DNA of 64,000 nt from Marinilongibacter aquaticus (GTDB lineage Bacteria; Bacteroidota; Bacteroidia; Cytophagales; Spirosomataceae), in the NCBI RefSeq assembly GCF_020149935.1, contig NZ_CP083757.1, positions 310,001 to 374,000 of the forward strand, given 5' to 3'. The translations under genes were made by a program, and so were the position numbers. Of this stretch, positions 54,543 to 58,928 are shown in pieces. Position 1 is the stretch's first letter; every line of letters starts with the position of its first letter. Below the pieces are notes generated by a model, which ran no database searches, was not told the DNA's origin, and worked only from the letters and a program-made list of their open reading frames with translations.

Positions 54543-54572
54543 GTGGAACAGGACATGAAATTTCGTGGAACA
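54543..54572 (+). repeat. Two direct repeats of GTGGAACA in front of the parA promoter
   Basis: GTGGAACA at 54543-54550 and 54565-54572, start to start 22 bases, about two helical turns. The box equals the right half of the parS-type palindrome TGTTCCACGTGGAACA, but neither copy has a matching left half. They lie just upstream of the promoter. Confidence 0.55.
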
Positions 54573-54622: not shown

Positions 54623-55234
54623 ATGGCTAAAATTTTCATCGTTGCGAATTCAAGCAAGCATTCAGGGAAAACAACAACATCTCTGAACCTAGCTCTGTGT
54701 TTTGCAACCCTTACGCAAAGAACCTTGTTGATCAGTTTGGAGGAGCAAAGTTGGCTCGATGCCCTCTTTGGCCTTCAAAATACGGGCTCGGTAAAAGCCA
54801 ATACGTTTTTGACGTATATGAAAGGACAAAAATTGGATTACACGCTTTTCGAAGATTTTGATAAAGTGATTGTCGATTGTCCTGTGCATTTGAATGCCTC
54901 TGTATTCAAGGCTTTTAAAAATTTGGCAAAGCTGATTGTGCCCGTAGAATCGGAGTATTATGGATTGAACAATATACCCAATGTCATTCGCGAGGTGGAC
55001 AATTCGGGTATGGAATTGGCCGGGTTCTTGCCCGTGATGAGCAGGCCAAATTCGGCTGCAAGTTCTGCGGTGATCGAGCAATTGAAATCGTATTTCGGCG
55101 ATTTGGTTTTCCATCCCTCTATCCAAAGAAACTATTATTTGGGGCGACAAAAAGATTTCAGGAAATTTAGTTTGAGCGAACTTTCAGAGAAGGCCGCGGT
55201 TACCTATTTGGCTTTGGCTAATACATTATTATAA
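54623..55234 (+). CDS. Divergent ParA-like ATPase
   Basis: A 203-residue protein directly in front of parB, as a ParA should be. The P-loop is NSSKHSGKTTTS (GKT at 15-17), where ParA proteins have KGGxGKT; the signature lysine is displaced by one residue (K12, with Ser at the usual place). Switch I reads SLEEQ (38-42) where DxDPQ is expected, while switch II has DCP (85-87). The C-terminal half (IVPVESEYYGLNNI) still matches the family. It may move the chromosome by an altered cycle, or act as an orphan regulator. The second box in the promoter fits self-regulation by ParB. Confidence 0.8.
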   Translation: MAKIFIVANSSKHSGKTTTSLNLALCFATLTQRTLLISLEEQSWLDALFGLQNTGSVKANTFLTYMKGQKLDYTLFEDFDKVIVDCPVHLNASVFKAFKNLAKLIVPVESEYYGLNNIPNVIREVDNSGMELAGFLPVMSRPNSAASSAVIEQLKSYFGDLVFHPSIQRNYYLGRQKDFRKFSLSELSEKAAVTYLALANTLL

Positions 55235-55242
55235 GGAAAGCG

Positions 55243-56118
55243 ATGAAACAAAGGCGAGGTTTAGGAAAAGGATTGGGGGCTTTGTTGCCCGAAAAGGAAA
55301 TTGAAAAGGAAGAAAAACTGGTCTCCGACGAGCTCAGTGCCGAAATACCGGTGGATAAAATCGAAACCAATCCCTTTCAGCCCAGAACAGATTTTGATGA
55401 AAACGCATTGCAAGAATTGGCCGAATCGATTCGCTTGCAGGGCATTATTCAACCGATTACGGTGCGAGAGTCTGAAAAAGGCAAATATCAGTTGATTTCT
55501 GGTGAAAGACGTTTACAGGCTTCTAAGCGTATTGGTTTGAAATCCATTCCGGCGTATGTGCGTTCGGCCGATAAGCAGCAGATGTTGGAAATGGCCTTGA
55601 TCGAAAACATTCAACGCGAAAACCTAAACGCTATCGAGGTGGCTTTGAGTTACAAAAGGTTGATGCAAGAGTGCAATTTGCATCAAGACGAATTGGGCGA
55701 TAGAGTGGGGAAGAAGCGGTCGACGGTAAACAACTATCTGCGTTTGCTGAAGCTGCCTTATGAAGTGCAAGAAGGCCTTCGTCAAAATAAGATCAGCATG
55801 GGGCATGCTCGGGCTCTTTTGGGCGTGGATGAGCAATCGGATATGCTGAAGCTTTACCACAAGACCATGAAAGAGCAGCTCTCGGTACGGAAAGTGGAAG
55901 AATTGGTGCGAAAGCTTGGCGAAGAGCGTCCTGTGAAGAAGGAAAAACGCCCGTCGGAGATTAAGCAGGAAATACTCGAAATTCAAGAAAGTGTGGCCCG
56001 ATGGTTTGGAAAAAAAGTGTTGATAAAAGCGGACACCAAAAGCAAGGGAGAGATTAAAATTCCGTTTAAGACAAAGGATGAATTGGATGAAATCCTTGGA
56101 AAATTGAAAAAGAAATAG
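55243..56118 (+). CDS. parB: Chromosome partitioning protein ParB
   Basis: A 291-residue ParB with an N-terminal RGLGKGLGALL segment that contacts ParA, the CTP-binding/ParB core (GERR at 87-90, ENIQRENL at 121-128), an HTH with KKRSTVNNYLRLLKLP near 155-170, and a C-terminal dimerisation part. ParB binds parS sites as a clamp and spreads. No full parS palindrome was found within this window. It is nine bases downstream of parA. Confidence 0.93.
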   Translation: MKQRRGLGKGLGALLPEKEIEKEEKLVSDELSAEIPVDKIETNPFQPRTDFDENALQELAESIRLQGIIQPITVRESEKGKYQLISGERRLQASKRIGLKSIPAYVRSADKQQMLEMALIENIQRENLNAIEVALSYKRLMQECNLHQDELGDRVGKKRSTVNNYLRLLKLPYEVQEGLRQNKISMGHARALLGVDEQSDMLKLYHKTMKEQLSVRKVEELVRKLGEERPVKKEKRPSEIKQEILEIQESVARWFGKKVLIKADTKSKGEIKIPFKTKDELDEILGKLKKK

Positions 56119-56125
56119 GTTTAGT

Positions 56126-56995
56126 TTGGCTCGCTTGTTTAAAATAACCGTGCTGCTTGTGGCATTCTCAATTGCCGCACAGGCTCAGCAAGAAGATAAG
56201 GAAACTGTCGTGGATTCACTCGAAAAGGTGAGCCAAGCGATTTTGCCTGCCCAAAAGGGCAAATTCTTCAATTCGCTGTCGAAGACCTTCGGTATGCAAG
56301 ATTTCACTATCGACGAAAAGCCTAAAATTGCTTTTCGTCGCTCACTGATTTTACCGGGCTGGGGACAAATCACGAACAATCAATCTTGGCTGGCTCCAAT
56401 CATTTGGTTGGCGGCCGCTGGAGATTATATGTTCGGTATTCGGCAAAACAACCTAAGGTATAAGCTCTATCTTGGACATTATGCCAAAGCCACCTATTTG
56501 AGCCGCAGCCTTATTTTCGATCAGGATGGAGCGGCCTTGCCGACGACGACGCCCATTTATCTGCAGCTCAAACCGAAGGAAAAAAGTCAGATTTTCGATA
56601 TCGATCGCAGTGTGTTTTACCTGATGACCAGTGACAGCACTTTTGCCACGGTTACACCGACCTGCTCAGATTGTAGCCAGAAAGACTTGAAGGCCATCGA
56701 GCAATTTCAATTGAACAAGGTGTTTTCCGAAGAGGAAGCGGCAAATTTGGATTTACGTGGCCCTTACAACACGACGACCTTTGAAAATGCGAAAAATCAG
56801 TACAGAAGGTATAAGCAATTGAGCATGATTTTGTTGGGAGCAGGCTGGTTGATGCAAGCTTTGCAAGCCAATGTGGCCGCACATTTGCAAACTTTCGATA
56901 TGAGCGACGACCTTTCGTTCAGCATAAGGCCGGCAGGGCCGGCTACTTTTGGCACGCAAGCCAATGGTTTAAGTTTGAGTATAGTTTTTAAATAG
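56126..56995 (+). CDS. DUF5683 domain-containing protein
   Basis: A 289-residue protein with an N-terminal signal peptide (about 1-20, AAQAQ). The DUF5683 core contains RRSLILPGWGQI with NNQSWLAPIIW and hydrophobic helices at about 90-110 and 230-250, suggesting a membrane-attached periplasmic protein. Function is unknown. The start appears to be TTG at 56126, seven bases after the parB stop. The gene is often found near parB in this group, so operon membership is plausible. Confidence 0.82.
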   Translation: MARLFKITVLLVAFSIAAQAQQEDKETVVDSLEKVSQAILPAQKGKFFNSLSKTFGMQDFTIDEKPKIAFRRSLILPGWGQITNNQSWLAPIIWLAAAGDYMFGIRQNNLRYKLYLGHYAKATYLSRSLIFDQDGAALPTTTPIYLQLKPKEKSQIFDIDRSVFYLMTSDSTFATVTPTCSDCSQKDLKAIEQFQLNKVFSEEEAANLDLRGPYNTTTFENAKNQYRRYKQLSMILLGAGWLMQALQANVAAHLQTFDMSDDLSFSIRPAGPATFGTQANGLSLSIVFK

Positions 56996-57008: not shown

Positions 57009-57725
57009 ATGAGAATATCTTTGGTGGGTTATGGCAAAATGGGGAAGGTAATTGAACAAATTGCCTTGGATCGAGGCCATGAAATTGCCTTTAAAATTGA
57101 CATGGCCAATCAGGCGGATTTGGAGAAAATCAGTCCTGAAAATACCGATGTGGTTATTGAGTTCAGTTCGCCGAGTTCGGCTTACACAAATTTGAAAACG
57201 TGCATGTCGAAAGGTTTGAAAACCGTTTCGGGCACGACGGGTTGGTTGGATAAAAAGGAAGAAATTGAAAGGCTTTGTGTAGAAAACAAGGCGGCATTTT
57301 TCTATGCCAGCAATTACAGCATTGGCGTGAACTTGTTTTTTCAATTGAACAAAAAATTGGCCCAACTCATGCGTGGGCAAAAAGAGTATAAAGTAAGCAC
57401 CACGGAAATTCACCATACCGAAAAACTGGACTCGCCCAGCGGTACGGCCATTACTTTGGCCGAGGGCATTATTGAGCATTTCGATGCCAAAGACAGTTGG
57501 GTGAATCAAGAAATTGCCAAAGAAAACGAAGTGCCGATTTGGAGTCTTCGCGAAGGCCGTGTGCCGGGTACGCACAGCATCAAGTACATTTCGGATGTGG
57601 ATGAAATCGAAATCAAACACGAGGCCAAAAGTCGTTTGGGTTTTGCCTTGGGAGCCGTAATCGCGGCAGAGTGGTTGGCCGACAAAGAGGGCGTTTTGGG
57701 CATGGATGACCTTTTGCAGATTTAA
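57009..57725 (+). CDS. dapB: 4-hydroxy-tetrahydrodipicolinate reductase
   Basis: A 238-residue enzyme of the lysine and meso-diaminopimelate pathway, giving the cell-wall precursor. Cofactor-binding motif LVGYGKMGKVI is at 5-15. The catalytic segment EIHHTEKLDSPSGTA is at 133-147 with H135/H136 and K139. It lacks an extended C-terminus, as in other members of the phylum. It is in the same direction as DUF5683 and lepB. Confidence 0.95.
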   Translation: MRISLVGYGKMGKVIEQIALDRGHEIAFKIDMANQADLEKISPENTDVVIEFSSPSSAYTNLKTCMSKGLKTVSGTTGWLDKKEEIERLCVENKAAFFYASNYSIGVNLFFQLNKKLAQLMRGQKEYKVSTTEIHHTEKLDSPSGTAITLAEGIIEHFDAKDSWVNQEIAKENEVPIWSLREGRVPGTHSIKYISDVDEIEIKHEAKSRLGFALGAVIAAEWLADKEGVLGMDDLLQI

Positions 57726-57797: not shown

Positions 57798-58928
57798 ATG
57801 TCAATGGCAAAAGAAAAGACCAAAAAGAAAAAAGGGCCAGTGAGAGAATGGTTCGATTCCGTGCTGTTCGCTGTGGTGGCCGCCACCCTTATCCGTTGGA
57901 TGTTTTTGGAAGCCTACACAATTCCTACGGGTTCGATGGAAAAAAGTCTTCTAATCAACGATTTCCTTTTTGTGAGCAAAGTGCATTACGGAACACGTGC
58001 CCCGATGACGCCCCTGCAAGTGCCGCTTACGCACCAAAAAATATGGTTTACCGATATTCCTTCCTATTCCGATTTGATTGAACTGCCGTATTTCCGTTTT
58101 CCTGGTTTTACGCATGTGAAAAACGGCGATGTGGTGGTCTTCAACTATCCGGGTTGCCCAGAAAGACCGGATGAATTCGGTGGTTTTGACAAATATCCCG
58201 TGGATTTGCGTACCAACTACATCAAACGTTGTATCGGTACGCCAGGCGATAAGATTACTTTAAAAGACACGCAAGTGTATATCAACGACAAGCCCATGGA
58301 GAACCCTCCGGGTATGCAAAAATGGTATACGCTGGAAAGCAATACTTCTGTAAACCCGAATGTGTGGAAGAAATACGATGTGACCGAAAGGGGATCGGGA
58401 AGCCAAGGCAATAAATATTATTATGCAATCAATGCCACCGAAAGTGCGGTGAAGGATTTGGAAGCCTTGGATTTCGTAAGCAGTGTGTACCCAGACATTA
58501 TTGCAGCCGACGATTCGCTAACACCCTTCAAAACATTTCCGTACCGTCCGGATTTGGTGAATTGGAATCGCGACAATTTCGGGCCGATTACCGTGCCGAA
58601 AAAGGGGATGACTGTAGATTTGACCAACGAACTTAATTTCGCTCTATACAAAGGAATTATTACCACTTTCGACCACAACGACAATGCGGAAGTGAAAGAC
58701 GGTAAAGTGTACATTGACGGACAAGTTATTACCAAATACACTTTCAATCAAGATTATTATTTCATGATGGGGGATAACCGCTACGAATCCGACGATAGCC
58801 GTTATTGGGGTTTTGTGCCCGAAGATCACGTTGTGGGTAAAGCTCTCTTGATTTGGATGTCGATTGATGCGGATGGGAATTTCCTCAATAAAATCCGATG
58901 GAAACGCCTGTTTAGCTTAATCAAATAA
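57798..58928 (+). CDS. lepB: Signal peptidase I
   Basis: A 376-residue membrane-bound serine protease that removes signal peptides. One N-terminal helix (about 22-38) is followed by box B TIPTGSMEKSLL with S46 and box D with catalytic K143 (YIKRCIGTPGDK). MMGDNRYESDDSR is box E. The protein carries a long insertion at about 180-280 that is absent from E. coli-type boundaries but is seen in Bacteroidota. An ATG six bases downstream is an alternative start. Confidence 0.93.
   Translation: MSMAKEKTKKKKGPVREWFDSVLFAVVAATLIRWMFLEAYTIPTGSMEKSLLINDFLFVSKVHYGTRAPMTPLQVPLTHQKIWFTDIPSYSDLIELPYFRFPGFTHVKNGDVVVFNYPGCPERPDEFGGFDKYPVDLRTNYIKRCIGTPGDKITLKDTQVYINDKPMENPPGMQKWYTLESNTSVNPNVWKKYDVTERGSGSQGNKYYYAINATESAVKDLEALDFVSSVYPDIIAADDSLTPFKTFPYRPDLVNWNRDNFGPITVPKKGMTVDLTNELNFALYKGIITTFDHNDNAEVKDGKVYIDGQVITKYTFNQDYYFMMGDNRYESDDSRYWGFVPEDHVVGKALLIWMSIDADGNFLNKIRWKRLFSLIK

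Follow-up and report, generated by a model that had tools for sequence, protein, structure and literature searches.

Results

A short, divergent ParA beside an ordinary ParB

The window, by which we mean the whole stretch of 64,000 nucleotides of Marinilongibacter aquaticus DNA that was analysed, encodes an unusual ParA (ParA1) directly upstream of ParB1. The features of the locus are as follows.

54543..54550, plus strand: half-parS GTGGAACA, 80 bases 5' of parA1
54565..54572, plus strand: half-parS GTGGAACA, 58 bases 5' of parA1
54623..55234, plus strand: parA1, encoding a divergent ParA of 203 amino acids (translation, Pfam, AlphaFold2 model)
54647..54676, plus strand: P-loop NSSKHSGKTT, residues 9-18, with Ser at the signature Lys position and Lys one place later
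54734..54748, plus strand: Walker A' position SLEEQ, residues 38-42, with Glu at the catalytic Asp position
54791..54811, plus strand: site of the missing segment, approximate, estimated from the alignment
54857..54883, plus strand: Walker B-like FDKVIVDCP; its Asp85 is invariant in 15 of 15 clade ParA1 proteins
55127..55141, plus strand: RNYYL, residues 169-173; Arg and Asn kept, Tyr at the DNA-contact Lys/Arg position
55243..56118, plus strand: parB1, encoding an ordinary ParB with LGKGL ParA-binding motif, GERR motif and helix-turn-helix (HTH) intact
56126..56995, plus strand: gene of a DUF5683 protein, downstream neighbour
57009..57725, plus strand: dapB, downstream neighbour
57798..58928, plus strand: signal peptidase (Peptidase_S26) gene, downstream neighbour

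Translation of window:54623-55234:+ bears out both motif deviations on which an earlier note on this DNA had remarked: ParA1 has neither the KGGxGK[ST] deviant Walker A motif with its signature Lys nor the Walker A' DxDPQ of ParA/Soj. The first observation can be refined, in that the P-loop is of unchanged length and its Lys has moved by one place (S-K-H-S-G-K versus K-G-G-V-G-K); as to the second, SLEEQ occurs in this species alone among the 15 ParA1 proteins of the clade described below. The short length is likewise genuine. As judged from the alignment, residues have been lost internally, C-terminal to the Walker A' box, in relatives as in this protein, and window ParA1 lacks 24 of the 27 residues of ParA2 59-85 together with 12 of the 15 of ParA2 86-100. 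A frameshift or a mis-called start is rejected as the cause, the internal loss being found in relatives too.

Is so altered a protein still a ParA? By descent and predicted fold it is, because the Pfam AAA_31 score (48.3 bits against a cut-off of 27) is that of the ParA/Soj family and the best matches of the structural model are Soj and ParA proteins. The AlphaFold2 model (16 sequences; mean pLDDT 80, pTM 0.81, residues 51-62 below 50) matches best the Soj integrative model 9a6n, with Z 23.4 over 200 residues; further matches are 8ray, HpSoj and 2bek, the crystal structures scoring Z 22-23 over about 200 residues. With the more specific NCBIfam model ParA_partition (NF041546), ParA1 reaches just 34.4 of 180 bits. 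The parB1 product (291 residues) is as ordinary as the earlier note had it, with ParB_N, HTH_ParB and ParB_C all above their Pfam cut-offs, and the gene order typical of the operon is kept, 8 bases separating parA1 from parB1.

The two GTGGAACA half-parS sites 5' of parA1 lie 22 bases apart and recur at identical positions (-80, -58) in G001 and G002 and at a near-identical place in G022 (-75, -52). There is one copy in G169, and the half-site is absent within 300 bases 5' of parA1 in the other 10 clade genomes. Related half-sites lie upstream of parA in all four canonical relatives examined. The pair is a possible ParB operator.

The ParA1 variant is shared by a clade

How widespread is this form of ParA1? 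The alignment with related genera that the earlier note had recommended makes plain that the variant is not a one-off. Relatives and 222 family genomes were searched, and 15 divergent ParA1 proteins were inspected against 42 canonical ParA, 16 ParA2 and 6 ParA3 rows; 17 of the 42 canonical rows come from the same family group, the assessment of the remaining family genomes being confined to match pattern and frame length. The 15 genomes form one clade of five genus groups (g1, g15, g21, g22 and g49), including Jiulongibacter, which NCBI places in Leadbetterellaceae. ParA1 of G165, which fell short of the BLAST threshold, was included manually, and that of G169, at first labelled ParA3, was reassigned to the divergent ParA1 proteins; outside the 15 stand G172 (77% complete), which gave a ParB2 match and no ParB1 or ParA1 match, and a short frame of 195 residues in G065. 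Among 192 genomes of the order, only G000, the window genome (1.3e-77), and G023 (4.5e-88) stood apart as carriers of the divergent form, both clade members; the next match was at 2.8e-47, in a frame of 265 residues. A scan of named genomes with two short patterns returned three loci above 30% identity, including Jiulongibacter sediminis NZ_LGTQ01000005.1, and is no census, since g22-type proteins do not fit the patterns. Separately, 23 of the 192 order genomes lacked a ParA profile match at 1e-25, and the 20 listed belong to f2 (9), f14 (10) and f68 (1); two families of the order may, by this profile, have a very different ParA or none. Our literature search found neither a variant ParA nor a second ParABS described for these genera.

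All 15 parA1 frames are open (198-248 amino acids), and all lie directly upstream of parB1, at gaps of about -26 to +34 bases when the parB start is taken from the BLAST match. The signature Lys is present in only one ParA1 of 15 (G165), versus 42 of 42 canonical ParA, 16 of 16 ParA2 and 6 of 6 ParA3 proteins. A basic residue occupies motif position 2 in 12 of the 15 and position 3 in two more; the loop of G232 has none. Nevertheless, GK, the T or S that follows it, the Ser or Cys that precedes it, the Walker B Asp, and R215 and N216 (ParA2 numbering) are kept in every ParA1. The catalytic Asp is found in 7 of 15, and the Gln and Asn next to it vary freely. With respect to DNA binding, position 218, a contact residue that is Lys or Arg in all 42 canonical rows, is Tyr in all 15. 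Similarly, Gln at position 149 is replaced by Glu in all 15, and Glu is found there in none of 64 other rows; A154 is Gly in all 15, as it is in the 6 ParA3 proteins. Fourteen alignment columns are invariant among the 15, including a Glu and a Tyr that are absent from every canonical row.

The structural meaning of these positions comes from H. pylori ParA (HpParA), in which, according to PMC11229316, the catalytic water is held by D41 and DNA is contacted by K230, and K12 and E156 make contacts across the dimer, to ATP and to the ribose respectively; DNA-binding arginines are treated in PMC7229837. HpParA K12, D41, K227 and K230 correspond to ParA2 positions 11, 40, 215 and 218, as matched by counting on the alignment. 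The Glu equivalent to E156 is kept in 14 of 15 ParA1 proteins.

Of the 15 ParA1 proteins, 14 have lost segment 59-85 (ParA2 numbering) or keep it in shortened form, and in the window lineage little remains of 59-100. For P. aeruginosa ParA, PMC4219104 reports that residues 59-84 (by deletion) and E67-L85 (by alanine scan) are needed for dimerization and ParB binding; the lost segment corresponds to this dimerization region by similar numbering rather than by alignment. ParA1 of G169 (248 residues, L106) has the look of an intermediate, with 27 of 27 and 11 of 15 segment positions kept, the signature Lys gone and RNYYL present. Since this protein keeps the segment although its Lys is gone and the Tyr is in place, the comparison suggests that point changes preceded the deletion.

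ParA1 evolves rapidly under constraint

For ParA1, dS could be computed in 7 of 10 pairs, which give dN/dS (NG86) estimates of 0.070-0.188, compared with 0.008-0.031 for ParA2 (6 of 10 pairs) and 0.032-0.051 for ParB1 (3 pairs), all of them rough because dS is large in most pairs; for ParA1, dS was saturated and not computable in 3 of 10 pairs and exceeded 1 in 5 of the remaining 7. Averaged over 105 pairs, pairwise identity is 0.39 for ParA1, 0.62 for ParB1, 0.66 for ParB2 and 0.86 for ParA2, while the canonical ParA1 of the family averages 0.84 over 136 pairs. On these figures, ParA1 is under constraint, but not as a motor ParA is, and it evolves far faster than its paralogue ParA2. We rejected the reading of parA1 as a pseudogene, for which a broken frame and a dN/dS near 1 would be expected: every frame is open and the dN/dS values stay within the above range. 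The term "degenerate", which the earlier note had used, holds for the lost motor residues but sits poorly with purifying selection and with fixed residues that are the protein's own.

A second, canonical ParA2-ParB2 pair

Does the genome encode a canonical ParA elsewhere? A full-genome search, as the earlier note had advised, was run with PF13614 in G000 and recovered ParA2 (C1:1908165, 233.6 bits) and ParA3 (C1:1911560, 216.9 bits), together with two fragments of ParA1 and three lower-scoring hits to other genes. The order is parA2, parB2, dnaB (L035:8118-11298), with the ParA3 gene convergent to dnaB. The pair is instead flanked by dnaG and gyrB in G165, and in G169 dnaG is about 7 kb away. 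All 16 genomes of the clade possess a canonical ParA2-ParB2, with ParB2 matching at E 8.1e-96 or better; the best family match outside the clade is 6.2e-82, and among 296 sampled genomes of the phylum (>90% complete) the best match outside the clade, 9.8e-79, is at about the level of an ordinary ParB. Two ParB matches were found in six other family genomes (G063, G111, G113, G139, G140 and G142); ParA1 of G142 was inspected and is canonical, those of the other five being judged by match pattern. The ParB2-type pair of G142 has a ribosomal S16 gene nearby, and it looks chromosomal for this reason. As a side observation, ParA2 of the clade carries an insert of about 10-12 residues at positions 235-246 (GEKGEEFDLKFL in G000) that is absent in 42 of 42 canonical proteins.

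Trees were computed by a quick method with SH-aLRT support, leaving out identical proteins and frames below 120 amino acids. Clade ParB1 forms one clade (99) on the ordinary ParB1 side of the tree, ParB2 one clade (86; 99 with G142b), ParA2 one clade (98), and divergent ParA1 one clade (98) on a branch of about 4.6 changes per site. The trees are compatible with, but do not prove, a single origin; deep placements are unsure because the branches are long. We also considered ParA2-ParB2 as a recent plasmid acquisition and rejected it, the best 5,000 plasmid records all having below 60% identity for both proteins. Among the plasmid matches listed, ParA2 reaches 54.5% and ParB2 46.5%, the four best of each being Bacteroidales records. 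ParA1 matched 43 plasmid records, at no more than 26.5% identity among the matches listed.

The parS sites near mnmG

Where would the ParB proteins bind? A parS-like pair (at most 2 mismatches to TGTTNCACGTGNAACA) precedes mnmG by no more than 100 bases in 15 of 15 clade genomes; in G000 the exact TGTTTCACGTGAAACA is at C1:2728436, with GTTTCCACGTGGAACA 39 bases before it (L131:9398-9452, upstream of mnmG). Around the two parAB loci of G000, 18-19 kb at each were searched and contain no 16-mer within 4 mismatches of TGTTTCACGTGAAACA. Across 21 genomes, the one-mismatch pattern gave 37 forward matches versus 18 for the reversed control (1 versus 3 in G000); single matches therefore mean little, and it is the position upstream of mnmG that counts. 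Within 200 bases of mnmG, 14 non-clade genomes have one site in ten cases and two in G021, G142, G033 and G028. A strict association of two parS sites with a second ParAB was considered and is not clean, for the pair is found in 15 of 15 clade genomes but in G021, G033 and G028 too, and a second full-length ParB was not found in these three despite their two sites. Both ParB1 and ParB2 may use the place near mnmG. In G000, dnaA lies at C1:1649110, and mnmG/parS and dnaA are not neighbours, with about 1.08 Mb between them.

Discussion

What is the function of ParA1? The clade around Jiulongibacter has, by gene content, a second pair, parA2-parB2, beside parA1-parB1, together with a ParA1 that is strongly diverged, co-encoded with an intact ParB1 and evidently held by purifying selection. 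We propose, with moderate confidence, that ParA2 is the segregation motor and that ParA1 is a nucleotide-binding, probably non-cycling, monomer-like regulator of ParB1. The second pair would already have been present in the ancestor of the clade, and ParA2 would have taken over as the segregation motor. ParA1, keeping its P-loop and Mg-site residues, would still bind nucleotide; it would not run the cycle of ATP-sandwich dimerization, DNA binding and ParB-stimulated hydrolysis. Instead, it would regulate the ParB1-parS complex in monomer-like form, by tuning SMC loading or release, for instance, or DnaA. Because the equivalents of K12, D41 and K230 are lost or varying while the P-loop and Mg site are kept, ParA1 presents the profile of a nucleotide binder that does not complete the cycle, and the earlier note's suggestion of regulation without ATP-driven dimer cycling fits this pattern. 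Its other suggestion, DNA segregation by a different cycle, becomes less likely because each of the 16 genomes has a canonical ParA2-ParB2 as well. The N-terminal ParB1 motif LG[KR]GL..LL is kept in 15 of 15 (LGRGLGALL in G169); ParB1 also keeps its GERR motif and HTH. In B. subtilis, PMC9564211 describes Soj monomers that regulate SMC in the absence of DNA binding or ATP hydrolysis, apparently through the Spo0J N-terminus, as well as inhibition of DnaA by the ATP-bound Soj monomer.

Several observations run counter to a non-cycling, monomeric ParA1. The catalytic Asp persists in 7 of 15 proteins, G165 keeps the Lys at the signature position, the basic residue at motif position 2 or 3 (14 of 15) could replace the signature Lys, and dimers could persist since the Glu equivalent to E156 is kept in 14 of 15. 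ParF-sized ParAs (TP228, about 206 residues) dimerize, and the ParA1 model resembles them (Z 20.8). Furthermore, a monomeric ParA1 might not bind ParB1, because in the P. aeruginosa two-hybrid analysis of PMC4219104 ParB was bound by dimerizing ParA only. In an alternative that we consider unlikely, ParA1 still cycles ATP with a rebuilt active site (Lys moved by 1-2 residues, a loop of the form xKx[SC]GK[ST], ParF size) and, with ParB1, constitutes a second, divergent motor or positions another cargo. The basic residue at position 2 or 3 of the loop, the invariant Ser or Cys before GK, the dimerization of ParF-sized folds and the ParA-binding motif kept by ParB1 are in keeping with such a protein, as is McdA (SGGQGKT), for which PMC9178275 and PMC8262871 report strong ATPase activity and DNA binding without the signature Lys. 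Against it stand the freedom of the catalytic Asp and the following Gln and Asn to vary, the Tyr at the DNA-contact position in every ParA1, the G232 loop with no basic residue, and the constant presence of canonical ParA2-ParB2.

It is also conceivable, though improbable, that ParA1 is a relic of relaxed selection after the takeover by ParA2-ParB2, kept just for the parB1 promoter and translational coupling and having little function of its own. Its fast evolution along the long branch, the graded loss of the segment, and the near contact or overlap of parA1 and parB1 throughout the 15 genomes, which fits coupling, are what a relic would be expected to show; the open frames, the low dN/dS (0.07-0.19) and the 14 invariant columns, with their Glu and Tyr seen in no canonical row, argue otherwise. 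The probability that the window holds an artefact of sequencing or assembly, a frameshift or a wrongly annotated start is negligible: we found no point in its support, and it is refuted by like proteins in 15 different genomes, including the Jiulongibacter sediminis locus.

How does ParA1 compare with known systems? It shares with chromosomal ParA/Soj of type Ib (B. subtilis, H. pylori Soj) the fold, the operon with parB, the P-loop GKT, the Walker B Asp, the R-N pair and the C-terminal helix. Unlike type Ib Soj, ParA1 is devoid of the signature Lys, of DxDPQ and of most of the segment after Walker A', has Tyr for the DNA-contact Lys/Arg, and coexists with a second canonical ParAB. ParA1 is akin to the monomer-locked B. 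subtilis Soj variants K16A and G12V in that it is predicted to be unable to run the dimer, DNA and ATPase cycle and has a ParB N-terminal motif available beside it. However, these variants, which regulate SMC and (in the ATP-bound form) DnaA according to PMC9564211, are laboratory point mutants of a canonical ParA, whereas ParA1 is a natural, clade-wide form with other changes and with the P-loop Lys kept. Likewise, ParA1 and beta-McdA type 1, which positions cyanobacterial carboxysomes, are both ParA-family proteins that lack the signature Lys, but beta-McdA is described in PMC9178275 and PMC8262871 as having an McdB partner, a mid-protein extension and strong ATPase activity, while ParA1 is shortened in the middle and neighbours parB. 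ParF, the ParA of plasmid TP228, is similar to ParA1 in length (204-211 residue chains) and in fold. Its partner protein has no known relationship to chromosomal ParB. In contrast to window ParA1, TP228 ParA carries the signature Lys (Lys10, PMC5393062).

A broader reading of the proposed regulatory ParA1 can be put forward only tentatively, as we hold it doubtful: the clade may have exchanged its segregation motor. On this view the extra ParA2-ParB2 assumed the task, probably at the same parS pair near mnmG, and the original ParA was retained solely as a monomeric regulator of ParB1. If so, motor and monomer signalling, combined in one Soj in B. subtilis, would be split between two genes, and the replacement of a chromosomal segregation system would be documented. 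The regulatory roles of monomeric ParA in the cited work come from engineered Soj mutants; a fixed non-cycling ParA1 beside an intact ParB and a canonical second ParAB would be a natural separation of functions, and the question would be directly testable in cultured Jiulongibacter sediminis.

Finally, we note that ParA3 is encoded alone, convergent to dnaB (L035:11309-12094; G000:C1:1911308-1912093), and was found in G000, G001, G002, G022, G016 and G232. It keeps KGGVGKT, has Asp for the Asn of the R-N pair in 6 of 6 proteins, and carries DTDYQ or DTDHQ in place of DxDPQ.
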